Shown piece by piece: positions 3,097-32,108 of a DNA stretch of 35,456 nucleotides (positions are counted from its first letter, which is position 1; every line of letters begins with the position of its first letter). A program made the translations under genes and the position numbers. The notes beneath the pieces are model-generated. The model was given only the letters and a program-made list of their open reading frames with translations, was not told where the DNA came from and ran no database searches. The stretch is from Bacteroidales bacterium (GTDB lineage: Bacteria > Bacteroidota > Bacteroidia > Bacteroidales > F082), in NCBI GenBank assembly GCA_017461665.1, contig JAFTXI010000045.1:1-35456 (forward strand), in the 5' to 3' direction.

Positions 3097-3126
3097 TGTT
3101 AATTGTCAATTGTTAACTGTCAATTG
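3097..3126. repeat. Heptamer word array overlapping the end of fic
   Basis: Four exactly phased heptamers (tgttaat, tgtcaat, tgttaac, tgtcaat) plus two bases. The fic stop codon (minus-strand TAA at 3113-3115) and its last codons lie inside the array, so the repeat has replaced or forms the true 3' end of that gene. Confidence 0.65.
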
Positions 3127-4069
3127 CCTCATATCCTCCGTTTTTGGCGACACCTTTGAAAATAATTTGCTTCTTGTCGCTTAACTTCTTTAAATAACGT
3201 TGTGTGGTTCTTAGACTGCGTCCTGTCTTATTCGATAAAGCAGGCGCATTCAATCCTGGGTTGTTGATAATCGTATCATACAACATCTGCTCAAAATCAA
3301 TCTTTTGAGGTTTGGGCTCAGTCTCACGAAATAGTCTTAATATCTCCAACTGCGTCATCATTATTCTGTCGGCAATGAACGATATGAAAACTTCTTCGTT
3401 ATCATGTGCTTTTTCCAAGACTTCTATATATTCTGCGCGCGTGACAGTCGGAATTATCGCTATGTTGTAATCGTTGCGCATCAACGATAAATTCATTAGC
3501 AAACGAGCAACACGACCATTGCCGTCTATGAATGGATGTATGAAAACGAAGCGTTTATGAAACTCTGCTGCTAAAACGATGGGGTGAAGTTTGCTTTCAT
3601 TGTTGTTGTACCATTGTACCAACTGTTTCATACGTTTGCTAATCTCTGCGACAGGTGCAACTGCATATTTGCTTCCACTAACAAAAACCGGTACTTTACG
3701 ATATTTGCCGGCCTTTTCATCATCTATCTTCTGATAAAAAAGTCTATGTATGTTACATATTATCTCTTCTGTGATAGGTTCGTTATGGCTAAGTTCATAC
3801 AAATAATCGTATGCCTTCGCATGCCCTACTGCCTCGTAAATATCGCGCAAAGGTTTGCCTTCTATCGTTAATCCATTCTCGATAACGACCTTCGTTTCAG
3901 ATTCGGTCAGGCTATTTCCTTCGATGGCATTGCTTGAAAATGTCGTTCCAATCTTGTAGTATTCCTTCAGTGAATTTATAGTCTCAGGTGATAATGGACG
4001 ATATGACCACAACTCCTGCTGGAATTTCTCGCATTGAAAGATTTTATCTTGTAAGTCACTCGAAATCAT
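3113..4069 (-). CDS. Fic/DOC family protein, class II, with C-terminal winged helix
   Basis: Predicted AMP-transferring (or related) Fic enzyme. The catalytic motif HPFIDGNGR sits at residues 178-186 and matches HxFx(D/E)GNGR exactly. Upstream, S46-NAI-E50-G51 (in SSNAIEGNS) matches the inhibitory motif (S/T)xxxE(G/N), which in class II enzymes places a glutamate in the ATP pocket to restrain activity. The C-terminal 60 residues, with NAPALSNKTGRSLRTTQRYL, look like a winged helix-turn-helix, as in Fic proteins that may bind their own promoter. Length (318) is typical. The target protein cannot be predicted. The stop codon falls within a heptamer array. Three direct repeats sit over the upstream promoter. 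No antitoxin gene is adjacent, as expected when inhibition is intramolecular. Confidence 0.92.
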   Translation of the reverse strand: MISSDLQDKIFQCEKFQQELWSYRPLSPETINSLKEYYKIGTTFSSNAIEGNSLTESETKVVIENGLTIEGKPLRDIYEAVGHAKAYDYLYELSHNEPITEEIICNIHRLFYQKIDDEKAGKYRKVPVFVSGSKYAVAPVAEISKRMKQLVQWYNNNESKLHPIVLAAEFHKRFVFIHPFIDGNGRVARLLMNLSLMRNDYNIAIIPTVTRAEYIEVLEKAHDNEEVFISFIADRIMMTQLEILRLFRETEPKPQKIDFEQMLYDTIINNPGLNAPALSNKTGRSLRTTQRYLKKLSDKKQIIFKGVAKNGGYEAIDS

Positions 4070-5255: not shown

Positions 5256-5282
5256 TTGGCTGTTAGCTATTAGCTATTGGCA
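5256..5282. repeat. Heptamer word array (ttagcta)
   Basis: Phased heptamers ttggctg, ttagcta, ttagcta and ttggca(t) fill the 37-base gap between trpS and hflX. The array begins one base after the trpS stop codon. There is no sign of a promoter or terminator here. Confidence 0.6.
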
Positions 5283-11398: not shown

Positions 11399-11438
11399 TA
11401 AAACTTCAGAATTCCAAAACTCATAGACTCATAGACTC
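11399..11438. repeat. Bipartite octamer array, copy 1
   Basis: On the minus strand five exactly phased 8-nt words read gagtctat, gagtctat, gagttttg, gaattctg, aagtttta. The same order, gagtcNNN words and then gaagttct-like words, recurs at 19426-19473 and 23660-23795. It lies between the exbD terminator and the GH92 terminator, in DNA without genes. Confidence 0.7.
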
Positions 11439-11441
11439 AAA

Positions 11442-16928: not shown

Positions 16929-19022
16929 ATGATCGAAGAAACATTTATCATCAAAAGAAACGGTCAAAGAGTACCTTTCTCTATCGAAAAAATTAAAAAC
17001 GCCGTATCTAAGGCATTCCTCTCCGTAGGCGCTTTCGCAACTCAAGATGTACTCACCAACATTATGTGCCGCTTGGACATCTACGACGGCATCTCGGTAG
17101 AAGAAATACAAAATCAGGTGGAACGCTCTATCATGGCTGAACGTTACTATGAAGTGGCAAAGGCTTATATCCTCTATCGCCAACGTCAATACGAAGACAG
17201 AGAAATATCCGATAAGATGCGCTTCCTCGTCAATTACTGCAACGCAACAAACGCTGCTACAGGAAGTAAATTCGACTCTAACGCCAACGTGGAAAAGAAA
17301 AATATCGCTACTCTCATTGGCGAACTGCCAAAGTCTAACTTCATACGCCTCAACCGCCGTATGCTCTGCGACAGACTTAAAGAACTCTACGGAAAAGAAC
17401 TCTCCGACAAATATCTCTACATGCTTAATAATCACTTCATCTATAAAAACGATGAGACAAGCATGGCAAACTACTGCGCAAGTATCACCATGTATCCTTG
17501 GCTGCTCAACGGAACACTGAGCATTGGCGGCAACGCAACACGCCCAACAAACCTCAAGTCGTTCTGCGGCGGATTCATCAATATGGTATTCATGGTGTCG
17601 AGTATGCTGAGCGGCGCCTGCGCAACACCAGAGTTCCTCATGTATATGAACTATTTCATTGGCTTGGAATACGGAAAAGATTATTACAAACATACTGACG
17701 AAGTCGTCGATCTTTCTCTTAAAAAAAGAACGATGGACAAGGTCATCACCGATTGTTTCCAACAAGTCGTATATTCTATAAATCAACCAACAGGAGCACG
17801 TAACTTCCAATCTGTATTCTGGAATATTTCTTACTACGACAAATATTATTTCCAAAGTCTCTTCGGCGAGTTCTGTTTCCCTGATGGCTCGCGTCCCGAT
17901 TGGGATTCCTTAGATTGGCTTCAGAAACGTTTCATGCGCTGGTTTAACGAAGAAAGAACAAAGGCTGTCCTTACATTCCCTGTCGAGACGATGGCTCTTC
18001 TCTCTAAAGATGACGATATCTTGGATAAAGAATACGCCGATTTCACAGCTGAGATGTATGCTGCCGGTCATTCATTCTTCACCTACGTCAGCGACAATGC
18101 CGACTCTTTGAGCAGCTGCTGCCGTCTCAGAAACGAAATCCAAGACAACGGATTCAGCTACACTTTGGGAGCTGGAGGCGTCTCTACAGGCTCTAAAAGC
18201 GTCTTGACGTTAAACCTCAACCGTTGCATACAATATGAAAAGAAAAACAATATTCCTCATCTGAAGTTTGTAGAAGATGTCATCGACTTGATGCATAAGG
18301 TTCAGATTGCTTATAACGAAAACCTTAAATATCTTCAAGAGAAAGGAATGTTGCCACTCTTCGACTCTGGTTATATTGCATTGTCGCGTCAATATCTTAC
18401 GATAGGAATCAATGGTATTGTTGAGGCAGCCGAGTTCTTGGGAATACCAATTAACGATAATGCCGAATATCGCGAGTTCGTTCAAGGCGTCTTAGGATTG
18501 ATAGAAAGATATAACAAGCAATATAGAAAGAAGGACTTGTTATTTAACTGCGAGATGATTCCTGCCGAAAACGTCGGTGTGAAACATGCGAAATGGGATA
18601 AGGAAGACGGATATTTCGTCCCTCGCGATTGCTACAACAGTTATTTCTTCGTCGTGGAAGACGAATCGTTGAATGTGCTGGATAAGTTCAAACTACATGG
18701 AAAACATTACATTGAACACCTGACAGGAGGCTCGGCTCTGCATCTTAATTTGGAAGAACATCTCTCCAAAGCTCAATATCGTCAGCTGTTAAGGGTAGCA
18801 GCCAAAGAAGGCTGCAACTATTTTACTTTTAACATTCCTAACACAGTCTGCAACGATTGCGGTCATATCGACAAGAGATATTTGAAGAAATGTCCGCATT
18901 GTGGAAGTGAGAACTTGGATTATCTCACGAGAGTCATCGGTTATATGAAGAGAATAAGCAATTTCTCGGAGGCACGACAAAAAGAAGCCGGACAAAGATA
19001 TTACTCGCGTTACGATGCTTAA
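16929..19022 (+). CDS. nrdD: Anaerobic (class III) ribonucleoside-triphosphate reductase
   Basis: Makes deoxyribonucleotides without oxygen, using a glycyl radical. I start at the ATG at 16929 (697 residues), because the longer reading begins at a TTG and adds nothing conserved. The N-terminus is an ATP-cone (FIIKRNGQRVPFSIEKIKNA). The C-terminus has a zinc ribbon with Cys641, Cys644, Cys655 and Cys658 (CNDCGH and CPHCGS). The glycyl-radical loop RVIGYMKR follows, with radical Gly671. The protein is complete. nrdG starts inside its last codons (8-base overlap), giving coupled translation with its activase. A cobalamin riboswitch in the leader indicates repression when B12 is available, presumably because the genome also has a B12-dependent class II enzyme (inference). 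Confidence 0.96.
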   Translation: MIEETFIIKRNGQRVPFSIEKIKNAVSKAFLSVGAFATQDVLTNIMCRLDIYDGISVEEIQNQVERSIMAERYYEVAKAYILYRQRQYEDREISDKMRFLVNYCNATNAATGSKFDSNANVEKKNIATLIGELPKSNFIRLNRRMLCDRLKELYGKELSDKYLYMLNNHFIYKNDETSMANYCASITMYPWLLNGTLSIGGNATRPTNLKSFCGGFINMVFMVSSMLSGACATPEFLMYMNYFIGLEYGKDYYKHTDEVVDLSLKKRTMDKVITDCFQQVVYSINQPTGARNFQSVFWNISYYDKYYFQSLFGEFCFPDGSRPDWDSLDWLQKRFMRWFNEERTKAVLTFPVETMALLSKDDDILDKEYADFTAEMYAAGHSFFTYVSDNADSLSSCCRLRNEIQDNGFSYTLGAGGVSTGSKSVLTLNLNRCIQYEKKNNIPHLKFVEDVIDLMHKVQIAYNENLKYLQEKGMLPLFDSGYIALSRQYLTIGINGIVEAAEFLGIPINDNAEYREFVQGVLGLIERYNKQYRKKDLLFNCEMIPAENVGVKHAKWDKEDGYFVPRDCYNSYFFVVEDESLNVLDKFKLHGKHYIEHLTGGSALHLNLEEHLSKAQYRQLLRVAAKEGCNYFTFNIPNTVCNDCGHIDKRYLKKCPHCGSENLDYLTRVIGYMKRISNFSEARQKEAGQRYYSRYDA

Positions 19023-19443
19023 ATATTACAACTACGATATAGTCTTTCAGGAGATTCCTGATGAGGTAAGTTTAGCTATAAACATCACTTGTTGTCCCAA
19101 CAGATGCGAAGGCTGCCATAGTCCGCATCTGTGGGAGGACATTGGTGAAGAGTTGACCTTTGACGAGTTAGATAGGATTGTTTCTATTTATGAAGGAGAA
19201 ATAACCTGTGTTTGCCTGATGGGAGGCGACAATGACTTAGCTGCGATTGAGGCGATGGCGCGACATATCAAGGAACGACATCGTTTGAAAGTTGGTTGGT
19301 ACTCAGGAAGAGAAATATTTCCATCTGAAATAAGATATTTCGATTATATCAAATTAGGGCCCTACGACAAGAACAAAGGAGGCTTGAAAAGCAAGACAAC
19401 AAATCAGAGGTTTTATAGAGTAACCAAGTCAATGAGTCAATGA
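19015..19443 (+). CDS. nrdG: Anaerobic ribonucleotide reductase activase (radical SAM)
   Basis: Radical SAM enzyme that generates the glycyl radical on NrdD. The cluster-binding motif CX3CX2C is C27-PNR-C31-EG-C34 in ITCCPNRCEGCHSPHLW. The conserved MGGD near residue 65 and the C-terminal TTNQRFYRV, which matches the tail of NrdG proteins, support the call. It has 142 residues, slightly shorter than E. coli NrdG. It overlaps nrdD by eight bases. The last residues (KSMSQ) and the stop codon lie inside an octamer repeat array beginning at 19426, so the natural C-terminus may have been rewritten by the repeat. Confidence 0.95.
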   Translation: MLKYYNYDIVFQEIPDEVSLAINITCCPNRCEGCHSPHLWEDIGEELTFDELDRIVSIYEGEITCVCLMGGDNDLAAIEAMARHIKERHRLKVGWYSGREIFPSEIRYFDYIKLGPYDKNKGGLKSKTTNQRFYRVTKSMSQ

Positions 19444-19473
19444 GTCTATAAGTTTTGAAGTTCTAAAGTTTAA
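19426..19473. repeat. Bipartite octamer array, copy 2
   Basis: Six exactly phased 8-nt words: aagtcaat, gagtcaat, gagtctat, aagttttg, aagttcta, aagtttaa. It has the same two-part design as 11399-11438 and 23660-23795. It overlaps the 3' end of nrdG and provides its TGA stop (19441-19443). Confidence 0.7.
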
Positions 19474-22338: not shown

Positions 22339-24933
22339 TCAGATTGGATCTACATCAACTTGTATCTTGACTGATTTAAATTCGGTGTTGTGCTTAAAAT
22401 CTTCTATAGTTTTTTTGATATAATCTTTAACCTTATTGGAATATAAGTCTTTGTTAATCTTGATAATCATCTGTTTGATATAAAGATTTTTCACTCGTGA
22501 GACGACAGGATATTCCGGTCCGAGGAAGTTTTCTTTAAAAGTATGACGAAACACTTTTGCCAATGAATCAGCTGCCTTGTTGAGTTTGTTGTAATCGACG
22601 TCTTTCACCTTTATTAATATGAGTCGCGAAAATGGCGGATAATTAAACTGCCGACGCGCCGCCATCTGCTCATCGTAGAAACTGACATAATCGTGACTCA
22701 TCACGCTGAGAATTACGGGATGCTGCGGCTGATAAGTCTGTATTATCACCTTTCCCTTATCGCCTTTTCTTCCTGCACGACCGCTCACCTGTTCCATCAG
22801 CTGGTAACTTCTCTCGTAGGCTCGGAAGTCGGGGAAGGTAAGCATATTGTCGGCATTTAATATTCCAACAACTTTTACGGAATCGAAGTCCAAGCCTTTG
22901 GTAACCATCTGTGTTCCAACAAGAATATCGGTTTCTTTATTCTGAAATTGTTCAAGAATATATTGATAGCTGTTTTTAGTTCTTGTTGTATCCAAGTCCA
23001 ATCGTGCGCTGCGTGCTTCCGGAAAAACGACTTTCAGGTCATCTTCAATGCGCTCTGTTCCAAAGCCATGCATCTTCAAGTCGGTACTTCTACACGATGG
23101 ACATTCTGTAGGGACGTTGGTGGTATATCCGCAATAATGACATTTGAGGATATTCTGATTTTTGTGATATGTGAGACTGACGTCGCAGTTGATACACTGC
23201 GGGATATAGCTACAATGTTCACATTCAATTCTGAGAGAGAATCCTCTGCGGTTTTGGAACAAGATGACCTGATTCTTCTCTTCGAGAGTTTTGTTCATGG
23301 CATCGACTAAAGTCTTGCCGAAGTTAGCCTGCATCATTTTACGACGCGTCTCCACCCTCAAATCGTCGATGATAATCTCCGGCATCTCCACTCCACCGTA
23401 GCGTTCCGTCAGGCTAACCAAGTGATACTTATTTTGTTTAGCGTTATGATACGATTCAAACGACGGTGTTGCCGAGCCTAAGAGGAGGCGAGCGTGGAAC
23501 ATTTTAGACATGACGACAGCTATGTCGCGAGCCGAATAACGCGGCGCCGGGTCAATCTGCTTGAACGAACTATCATGTTCCTCATCGACTATTATCAAGC
23601 CGAGATTAGAGAAAGGCAAAAAAATCGCCGAACGCGAACCAATGATGATTTGGTATTTTGAGTCGCCGAGTCGCCGAGTCGCCGAGTCGCCGAGATTTTG
23701 AGATTCTGAAGTTCTGAAGTTTTGAAGTTCTGAAGTTCTAAAGTTCTGAAGTTCTGAAGTTCTGAAGTTTTGAAGTTCTGAAGTTCTAAAATTCATCACC
23801 TGCTGCCATATCTCAACGCGTTCATTGTCGTCATAACGCGAGTGATAAACACCAACTCTATCACCAAAATATTTCTTTAATCTATTGATAATCTGTTCCG
23901 TCAAAGCTATCTCCGGAAGAAGATAGAGAACTTGCTTTCCTTTATCAATAGCCTCTTGTATCAGTTTGATATAAATCTCTGTCTTGCCACTCGACGTCAC
24001 GCCATGCAACAAAACAGGTTTCTCTTCATCGAAGCCTTCTCGTATCTCATCAAAAGCTGCTTGTTGTTTCTCTGTCAACACGATAGACGACACATCGGTG
24101 AGAGCTTTATAACTTTTCAAACGACTCATCCTCTTCTGGTAAGTCTCGAAGACACCTTTCTCCACCAATGCTGAAAATACTGAAGACGTGGCATTTGCCT
24201 TTTTCAGCAAGTCGGAGACGAGCACGTCGTTATCGACAGAGCCACCGAGTACGAGAAACGCCATCAGCAACTCCAACTGTTTGTAAGCTCTTTTCGAGAG
24301 ATTATCCATCAGCTGATGCATCTTCTCTTCGTCGCGATAATCATTTGACAATCTGACGAATCGCTCGTATCGCGCCTTATACTTTTGTTGCAGCTCCTCT
24401 TGCATCACTATGATTTTCCTTTCTATCATCGTCTTGACAAGAGGCATGACTTTCTTATATCCAATAATCTTGCTAACTTGCGTCAATGTTAGTTGAGGTT
24501 GAATATTGAGAGCTTCTACGATAAGATATTCGTTGTCGCTCAGCGTCTCACTATCAAGGACAAAGTCTTCGGCGAGAGATATTTTAGATTCGCTCGAGAG
24601 TTTCAGAGCCGAAGGCAAGGCAGCCTGCATCACTTCGCCAAGATAACACAGATAATACGACGAGATCCAATTCCATAGTGAGAGTTGGTTTTCATTGACA
24701 ACAGCGTCATCGTCGAGTATGTCGAGAAGATATTTTATGTTTGAATAATCAGGGACGTTGGTACTTACAGACGTTATCAAGCCTGACATTATCTTCGTCT
24801 TTCCAAACTGCACTACGGCTCTCAGTCCCACCCTCGCCTTCTGATTTAGTTCAAAAGGAACGCGATAGGTAAAAGTACCCGGCAATGGTAAAGGCAACAA
24901 TATCTCGGCAAATAACGTAAGTCTTTCTTCCAT
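22339..24933 (-). CDS. priA: Primosomal protein N' (replication restart helicase PriA) with repeat insertion
   Basis: PriA reloads the replisome at stalled forks. The 864-residue protein has the N-terminal DNA-binding region, Walker A GVTSSGKT at 311-318, Walker B DEEH at 450-453, paired zinc-binding CxxC motifs between about 530 and 580 (CEHC, CINC, CHYC, CPSC) and the helicase C-terminal motifs (GTQMVTKGLDFD, QVSGRAGR). Residues 381-426, between the conserved GVYHSRY...ERVEIWQQV region and IIIGSRSAIFLPF, are an insertion. It consists of the 8-residue unit NFRTSELQ repeated and then LGDSATRR, encoded by an octamer DNA array. Without it the length would be about 818, usual for the family. The gene starts four bases after the upstream plug-protein gene. 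Confidence 0.95.
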   Translation of the reverse strand: MEERLTLFAEILLPLPLPGTFTYRVPFELNQKARVGLRAVVQFGKTKIMSGLITSVSTNVPDYSNIKYLLDILDDDAVVNENQLSLWNWISSYYLCYLGEVMQAALPSALKLSSESKISLAEDFVLDSETLSDNEYLIVEALNIQPQLTLTQVSKIIGYKKVMPLVKTMIERKIIVMQEELQQKYKARYERFVRLSNDYRDEEKMHQLMDNLSKRAYKQLELLMAFLVLGGSVDNDVLVSDLLKKANATSSVFSALVEKGVFETYQKRMSRLKSYKALTDVSSIVLTEKQQAAFDEIREGFDEEKPVLLHGVTSSGKTEIYIKLIQEAIDKGKQVLYLLPEIALTEQIINRLKKYFGDRVGVYHSRYDDNERVEIWQQVMNFRTSELQNFRTSELQNFRTSELQNFRTSESQNLGDSATRRLGDSKYQIIIGSRSAIFLPFSNLGLIIVDEEHDSSFKQIDPAPRYSARDIAVVMSKMFHARLLLGSATPSFESYHNAKQNKYHLVSLTERYGGVEMPEIIIDDLRVETRRKMMQANFGKTLVDAMNKTLEEKNQVILFQNRRGFSLRIECEHCSYIPQCINCDVSLTYHKNQNILKCHYCGYTTNVPTECPSCRSTDLKMHGFGTERIEDDLKVVFPEARSARLDLDTTRTKNSYQYILEQFQNKETDILVGTQMVTKGLDFDSVKVVGILNADNMLTFPDFRAYERSYQLMEQVSGRAGRKGDKGKVIIQTYQPQHPVILSVMSHDYVSFYDEQMAARRQFNYPPFSRLILIKVKDVDYNKLNKAADSLAKVFRHTFKENFLGPEYPVVSRVKNLYIKQMIIKINKDLYSNKVKDYIKKTIEDFKHNTEFKSVKIQVDVDPI
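23660..23795. repeat. Bipartite octamer array, copy 3, inside priA
   Basis: Seventeen exactly phased 8-nt words on the plus strand: four gagtcgcc, then gagatttt, gagattct and eleven variants of gaagttct (gaagtttt, aaagttct, last aaaattca). The gaagttct part also has a 48-nt higher-order period (six words). Because 8 is not a multiple of 3, the frame rotates every word and the protein repeats every three words (24 nt, 8 residues). No stop arises in the priA frame. The array lies antisense to priA relative to copy 2. Confidence 0.9.
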
Positions 24934-31749: not shown

Positions 31750-32004
31750 TTAATCGTTCTTTCTTCTTAAAGCGTAAGCTACACCCATACCAGCGAGTAA
31801 CAATAAACCTGAACCTACTGGTGCTGGTTCATTTGAAGTTGCACCAAATTCAGGCAATTTTGGAGTAATCTGAGAAATATCTGATTGATTACTATCAGTT
31901 CTGCCATACTCATTGTATGTTGATGTGAAGAAACTGTCAGATTGTGCATTTGCTCCTAATCCTAATATTATTACCATTGTGAATGTTACTAATAACTTTT
32001 TCAT
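31750..32004 (-). CDS. 84-residue secreted protein with C-terminal sorting-signal-like tail
   Basis: I start at 32004 because it opens a clean signal peptide (MKKLLVTFTMVIILGLGANA); the longer reading from 32103 runs through repeat arrays. The short mature part is polar. The C-terminus is a tripartite tail: a Pro/Gly motif (EPAPVGSG), a hydrophobic stretch (LLLLAGMGVAYA) and a basic end (LRRKND). This is the architecture of PEP-CTERM, GlyGly-CTERM and LPXTG sorting signals, although the motif matches none exactly. The alternative is a simple tail anchor. It has its own terminator and lies 105 bases downstream of a large T9SS cargo gene. Function is not known. Confidence 0.7.
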   Translation of the reverse strand: MKKLLVTFTMVIILGLGANAQSDSFFTSTYNEYGRTDSNQSDISQITPKLPEFGATSNEPAPVGSGLLLLAGMGVAYALRRKND

Positions 32005-32027
32005 TTTTACTTTTCTTTTTTTGAGGT

Positions 32028-32101
32028 CAACCGACAACTGGCAACCGACTTTTTCCACATCTATTTTTTGGATATACATCTGTTGTCCGTTGTCCGTTGA
32101 C
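32028..32101. repeat. Two heptamer arrays upstream of the small sorted protein
   Basis: Phased heptamers caaccga, caactgg, caaccga occupy 32028-32048, and tgttgtc, cgttgtc, cgttgac occupy 32081-32101. They flank a 32-base spacer in the gap between the small gene and the end of the large T9SS cargo gene. The second array uses words like those at 397-424. Confidence 0.6.
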
Positions 32102-32108
32102 ATTTTGA

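Follow-up and report, generated by a model that had tools for sequence, protein, structure and literature searches.

An array of 17 octamers lies in frame inside priA, the gene for the replication restart helicase PriA, in the genome of a Bacteroidales bacterium (G000). It probably stems from a dispersed lexicon of 7- and 8-nt words, a copy of which came into a permissive PriA loop in the common ancestor of the 11 gut Bacteroidales species examined that have it; since then it has been rewritten in frame. Simple repeats are usually thought to be kept out of essential enzymes. This clade tolerates their entry in PriA, MurB and DapB, and across each genome they seem to change in concert.

The stretch of DNA analyzed, referred to here as the window, is 35,456 nucleotides long (contig JAFTXI010000045.1). 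Table 1 displays its repeat arrays and the parts of the priA array. Numbers beginning with L denote loci and those beginning with G denote genomes.

Table 1. Repeat arrays in the window, the priA open reading frame and the parts of the priA array
Feature	Position	Strand	Basis or remark
Heptamer array, TTGTTAA/TTGTCAA	3096..3126	+	overlaps 3′ end of ORF 3113-4069
Heptamer array, TTGGCTG/TTAGCTA type	5256..5281	+	other words at this site in the sister genome G081
Octamer array, ACTCATAG	11419..11439	+	intergenic by ORF calls
Mixed octamer array, AGTCAATG/AGTCTATA then AAGTTTTG/AAGTTCTA	19427..19470	+	overlaps 3′ end of ORF 19015-19443
priA, replication restart helicase PriA, 864 aa	22339..24933	-	ORF; NCBIfam TIGR00595, 605.9 bits (cutoff 230.35)
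Four GAGTCGCC words; LGDSATRR on the priA strand	23660..23691	+	TRF and word reading
Two transitional words, GAGATTTT and GAGATTCT	23692..23707	+	word reading
Eleven GAAGTTCT-type words, the final one AAAATTCA; NFRTSELQ on the priA strand	23708..23795	+	TRF and word reading
48-nt duplication, copy 1, six words	23700..23747	+	44/48 identical to 23748-23795
48-nt duplication, copy 2	23748..23795	+	44/48 identical to 23700-23747
Heptamer array, peptide STDNGQQ	32079..32099	-	start of ORF 31750-32103

The octamer array in priA

A preliminary description of the window, made from its sequence, reported 17 octamers in a single 8-nt phase at positions 23660-23795, and on this the word reading and TRF agree. 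TRF recovers both blocks of the array, at 23660-23694 (100% matches) and at 23704-23787 (92%). The priA frame is open across the array and conserved helicase segments flank it, as had been described. The 48-nt higher-order period and the past duplication read from it are borne out by the two copies in Table 1. The array had been placed at residues 381-426; its place in PriA is right but the numbering is off by one, the actual residues being about 380-425. It had also been said to add about 46 residues. This is too many: the net gain over relatives outside the clade is about 37, since the span from ERVE to GSRS is 65 aa in the window and 28 aa in 13 of the 15 relatives outside the clade that were printed.

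The main block of the priA array has the top score among the 109 arrays listed at a lower threshold in a 435-kb sample of G000. The array is far beyond chance, as Markov-2 shuffles of this sample, at the scoring of the period scan described below, give no period-7 or period-8 array in 435 kb.

In a solved PriA structure (6dcr_A, which we take to be the E. coli protein), residue 256 aligns to window residue 381 and residue 258 to window residue 426; the insert (382-425) therefore stands opposite a single 6dcr_A residue. An AlphaFold2 model of PriA built from 41 sequences has a mean pLDDT of 73.9, i.e. moderate. Residues 384-424, preceding a strand at 429-432, are the longest stretch of the model with pLDDT below 50. 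Both results speak for a loop, though the low pLDDT could alternatively stem from a gappy alignment. The insert appears to be a tolerated disordered loop, and the peptide itself would have no needed role.

The PriA site among relatives

An insert is present at the same site of PriA in ten near relatives (L065-L072, L104 and L113), mostly with other words. PriA identity to the window is 78-92% in these ten, and the priA frame is open in all of them as well as in the window. Fifty-nine PriA loci were collected, of which 25 were printed (10 with the insert and 15 without).

The words in the loop differ from one species to another. The loop of L065 has GAGTCTCC four times, that of L066 has GAGTCTCT plus GTTGACTC, that of L104 has GGCTTTTG, and that of L070 consists of heptamers of the TGTTGTC type. 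L071 has GAGTCGCC in common with the window. In L067, L069, L072 and L113 the runs are short or degenerate. Loops with the insert are 105-195 nt long, and those of the 15 printed loci outside the group are 66-96 nt (84 nt in 13 of them).

In a tree of 41 proteins (40 and the window) made without the loop columns, the 11 PriA sequences with the insert form one clade (branch 100/99, one change). L112 was excluded since its given frame has stops, and the remaining 18 loci were partial or not selected. The loop columns hold 22-52 residues in the 11 clade members vs. 9-19 in the other 30 proteins of the tree; all 11 clade members examined have the insert.

The closest comparison is with the sister species (L065, genome G081). 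Its priA has 8 words in the same phase vs. 17 in the window, a difference of 72 nt or nine words, which is in frame. All four GAGTCGCC words of the window are GAGTCTCC in the sister, a concerted change. The preliminary description held that only changes of three words are tolerated and that array length might be polymorphic. Length does vary, between species. The nine-word difference fits the three-word rule, but relatives hold the frame with heptamers, octamers and partial words, so that the rule does not apply generally.

At one and the same distance from priA, L066 (3674-3708) has AGTCAACG octamers and L068 (3674), L071 (3677) and L104 (3676) have GACAACA-type heptamers. Unit length at a site may therefore itself change, if orthology, which is by position only, is accepted.

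Arrays in other conserved genes

Entry of repeats into priA had been considered unusual. It is not peculiar to this gene, as in-frame period-7 or period-8 arrays are found in 11 other family-matched open reading frames of the G000 sample. These are 11 of the 16 other open reading frames scanned; each matches a Pfam or NCBIfam family and carries an array that is not at the C-terminus. The scan left out the open reading frames of 1944 and 462 aa, which extend over two retrieved stretches. Among the hosts are DapB, MurB, an Omp85 family protein, an ABC transporter ATPase and an acyltransferase.

DapB has two array sites. In MurB there is an internal site, and a second lies close to the N-terminus, ahead of the matched domain. 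In DapB and MurB of near relatives the words differ at shared sites, as they also do at intergenic sites. At the second DapB site, loops of about the same length are found in relatives outside the group as well, but have no words (13 relatives were aligned; 95 other genomes had a match). In MurB, some group members, including the sister G081, have no insert at these sites; 13 relatives were taken, with L195 and L197 uncounted because they gave no usable protein.

Arrays across the genome

The G000 sample comprises 435,456 bases, made up of the window and 400 kb from selected stretches of contigs; it is a non-random 17% of the genome. Arrays were searched for by a self-match scan, with one Markov-2 shuffle per contig as the control. 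The sample has 37 period-7 and 35 period-8 arrays, 72 in all, and periods 4-6 and 9-13 have 0-3 each. The shuffled sample has none, except one at period 11. Periods 14, 16, 21 and 24 are also in excess, as expected of multiples. Most of the 72 arrays are intergenic. The heptamer word families are GACAACA, CAATTRA, AATTAGG and CATAATT, and the octamer families are GAGTCNNN and GAAGTTCT.

Within open reading frames of at least 200 aa there are 17 internal period-7 and 11 internal period-8 arrays, whereas three codon shuffles average 0.67 and 0.33. For periods 6, 9 and 12, which are compatible with protein repeats of the ordinary kind, the counts are 5, 6 and 9 vs. 1.67, 1.67 and 1.0 in the shuffles. 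The rate of period-7 and period-8 arrays per 10 kb is 0.76 in coding sequence (internal arrays) and 15.4 in intergenic sequence, about 20-fold rarer in genes, with open reading frames called by a crude script rather than a gene finder.

GACAACA arrays in L014, L015, L016, L018, L019 and L027 often end, by eye, beside a TATCTTTG-like box. This we take to be a Bacteroidetes promoter box, as if the arrays supplied its upstream half.

Mobilization by a RAYT was also considered and dropped: the Y1 tyrosine transposase family Y1_Tnp (PF01797) has no match in G000, which is 94% complete, and is present in 5 of 14 control genomes.

Composite blocks

Composite blocks consisting of heptamers, a T-run, a hairpin and octamers recur at different loci. 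Between the 20 GAAGTTCT/GAGTCGCC sites of G000 there are 148 matches of at least 34 nt. Among the matches listed, at least five locus pairs share blocks of 95-150 nt with 78-92% identity. The shared blocks keep arrays and neighboring elements in order, and four of the five listed include a hairpin. In the 435-kb sample GAGTC lies before GAAGTTCT on the same strand in 5 of 5 neighboring pairs; an exception to the order, found by eye, is at C23 184721-184915, where the arrays alternate. The composite blocks and the word order form the main evidence that sequences may have been copied from locus to locus.

Hairpins of the type GTAGAGACG...CGTCTC (or GTAGGGACGTATCGCATACGTCC) are seen beside arrays in L008, L031, L014, L015, L016 and L023 near 1400-1600, and some are shared between loci together with arrays. 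The array-side hairpins of G000 resemble GTAG/CGTC-tagged REPs. A 255-aa open reading frame without a Pfam match (L133:4373-5140, i.e. G000 C23 184373-185140) has four in-frame octamer arrays in which GAGTC and GAAGTTCT alternate.

Word lexicons of different genomes

Many words coexist within one genome, and the frequent ones differ between genomes. GAAGTTCT pairs (at most one mismatch) number 49 in G000, 15 in G091, 5 in G087, 4 in G099, 3 in G086, 2 in G093 and 1 in G064; the lowest of these counts mean little since the reversed control gives 0-2 per genome. No such pair occurs in the other 92 of the 99 genomes of the genus, which include the sister G081. CCTGAACT pairs number 8 in G086, 7 in G091, 6 in G093 (two of them in its priA), 1 each in six other genomes and 0 in G000 (reversed control 0-2).

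Outside priA, GAAGTTCT is found in 16 period-8 arrays of the G000 sample, 1 of G081 and 0 of G068. AGTCAACG, a word of the priA loop of G068 (locus L066), is found in 16 of G068, 1 of G000 and 0 of G081. Thus GAAGTTCT and AGTCAACG are each a word of their own genome's priA loop. The fit of G081 is weak: its priA words are not its commonest, with GAGTCTCC in 3 arrays and GAGGTTCT in 1, and this counts against a match of loop and lexicon.

Thirty-five orthologous-site comparisons were made, eight of them at the priA site; L065 and L066 were skipped in this set since their contigs are those of G081 and G068. Among the other 27, judged by eye, most differ in words, about six share words and a few have relatives without an array.

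In the samples, period-7 and period-8 arrays per 100 kb are 16.2 and 13.1 in G081, 27.8 and 33.5 in G068, and 8.5 and 8.0 in G000. Ten near-relative loci (114 kb) have 27 arrays of period 7, 14 of period 8 and 7 of period 6. Forty-nine other loci (542 kb) have 26 of period 7 and 6 of period 8, mostly with other words, e.g. ACTCTAA. Short 7- and 8-nt arrays therefore extend beyond the clade that bears the insert. In a survey of the phylum for three GAAGTTCT words in tandem (at most two mismatches), 3 of 296 genomes match: G000, G204 (one place) and the distant G337 (14 places). Six stretches of G337 (L171-L176), a biased choice as they were picked around the GAAGTTCT places, have 10 period-8 and 2 period-7 arrays.

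RAGTCNNNRAGTC is found at 329 places (reversed control 99). The first word is a GTCGCC word in 8 of the 100 listed (hand count) and in 4 of 4 in priA, which is only suggestive of word choice under coding constraint since the copies of RAGTCNNNRAGTC are not independent.

Origin of the arrays

Under the explanation preferred here, entry of a dispersed lexicon into a permissive loop, new words would reach a site by copying from other loci, through template switching or gene conversion guided by short stretches of homology. The arrays would then grow longer in place by slippage and by duplication of blocks, and selection would remove outcomes that break the frame or contain stops. Sites free of arrays do exist, e.g. 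in MurB when compared with G081. Against this explanation stand the words shared at about six of the 27 sites other than priA, the rise of period 6 in the near relatives and the lack of a Y1_Tnp match. The composite blocks in common and the species lexicons favor inter-locus copying, and the sister comparison and the 48-nt duplication favor local slippage and duplication. The 48-nt duplication and the nine-word length difference are also what purely local slippage from chance seeds would produce, with the likeness across loci due to base composition and mutation spectrum; in addition, an AGTCAAC start at the priA position is common to L066, L071 and L104, where it is extended as octamers or heptamers. 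As a complete account this is nevertheless unlikely, because different loci have the same blocks, irregular junctions and hairpins included, word classes are ordered in all the neighboring pairs, and GAAGTTCT is frequent in G000 and absent from its sister. It is unlikely that an unrecognized trans-acting process writes or overwrites 7- and 8-nt arrays at preferred chromosomal sites from a species-specific template, so that whole lexicons, the words within essential proteins included, are replaced in concert between sisters. A more specific form of writer, a telomerase-like reverse transcriptase with an RNA template (DRT10 type) that makes the species word, which is then captured at breaks, is very unlikely. 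The species dependence of the frequent words and the narrow unit length would agree with it, as would the tandem-repeat cDNA of DRT10, with 9-nt repeats in Eco3DRT10 and a motif length that depends on the system (PMC12632851). However, many words coexist per genome, and the four RVT_1 matches in G000 (L205, L206, L207 and L208) look by eye like another type of retroelement; nothing ties them to the arrays. Two of these genes have the look of a diversity-generating retroelement, with C-type-lectin/FGE-like neighbors, and the other two have a fused segment of that kind (by eye).

Two further explanations assign a role to the array itself. If one or two octamers were gained or lost, priA would go out of frame, and the top-scoring position of the priA array might be expected of a contingency locus in which array length switches PriA on or off or tunes it. 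Since priA is open in the window and in the ten relatives with the insert, similar arrays are present in MurB and DapB, which are presumably essential enzymes, and the words themselves change, such a locus is extremely improbable. Presence of the insert throughout the clade and peptides that look hydrophilic by eye would suit a selected, length-variable disordered linker with a function in the clade (e.g. partner binding), for which the repeats were raw material. This is highly improbable, as no conserved motif was seen in the 22-52 residues that occupy the same columns and the same kind of insert is found in unrelated enzymes. Misassembly is an unlikely source, given that an insert, mostly with other words, is found at this PriA site in ten further assemblies. 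Nor is an ordinary conserved domain likely, since the site is shared and the peptide is not.

Relationship to known repeat systems

Dispersed 7- and 8-mer elements, in-frame repeats in replication genes and the tolerance of loops are already in print. The searches yielded no account of clade-wide turnover of 7- and 8-nt words at fixed sites of essential proteins; this is weak evidence of absence, since they covered open-access literature only. The clade offers a natural series of in-frame loop insertions of known ancestry for the study of protein tolerance, and it makes testable how tandem repeats of 7-8 nt come to spread through the genomes of bacteria and why their unit length varies so little.

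The short tandemly repeated heptamers of cyanobacteria have been named STRR. Dispersed heptamers of this kind are present in G000, with 37 period-7 arrays per 435 kb. The unit of the window priA array is 8 rather than 7, and L070, L071 and L104 have heptamers there. Heptamer arrays are described in two reports: GGGAATC-type repeats in Xanthomonas and Nostoc (PMC4692102), and TAACTGA arrays from five Bacteroidetes, in which MacGregor places in-gene repeats mainly at the protein periphery (PMC4679880). As far as these accounts go, the likeness lies in 7-nt units and short dispersed arrays that are mostly intergenic and sporadic across phyla. The present system differs in having both 7- and 8-nt units, many coexisting words, classes that tend to be ordered, and arrays in the interior of enzymes.

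Rickettsia palindromic elements and in-gene REPs are found in frame in unrelated genes, those of replication and repair included, and are argued to be tolerated in loops or linkers (PMC10969869, PMC3733652). The arrays share with them the property of being small dispersed repeats in frame in unrelated genes. However, those elements are palindromic, with a peptide conserved within the family, whereas the priA words are direct repeats and not palindromic stem-loops, and the tandem words at each site are spelled in a species-dependent manner.

DRT10 is similar in its tandem DNA with a short unit that varies between systems; there, the tandem repeats are the cDNA of a phage defense system (PMC12632851). 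Geobacter metallireducens has multicopy tandem 7-mer or 8-mer elements, including one family of 49 that lies within as well as between genes. In the accessible part of that report each family has one consensus and is read as regulatory, and turnover at a site from species to species is not mentioned; in this the Geobacter elements differ from the arrays described here (PMC2700814).
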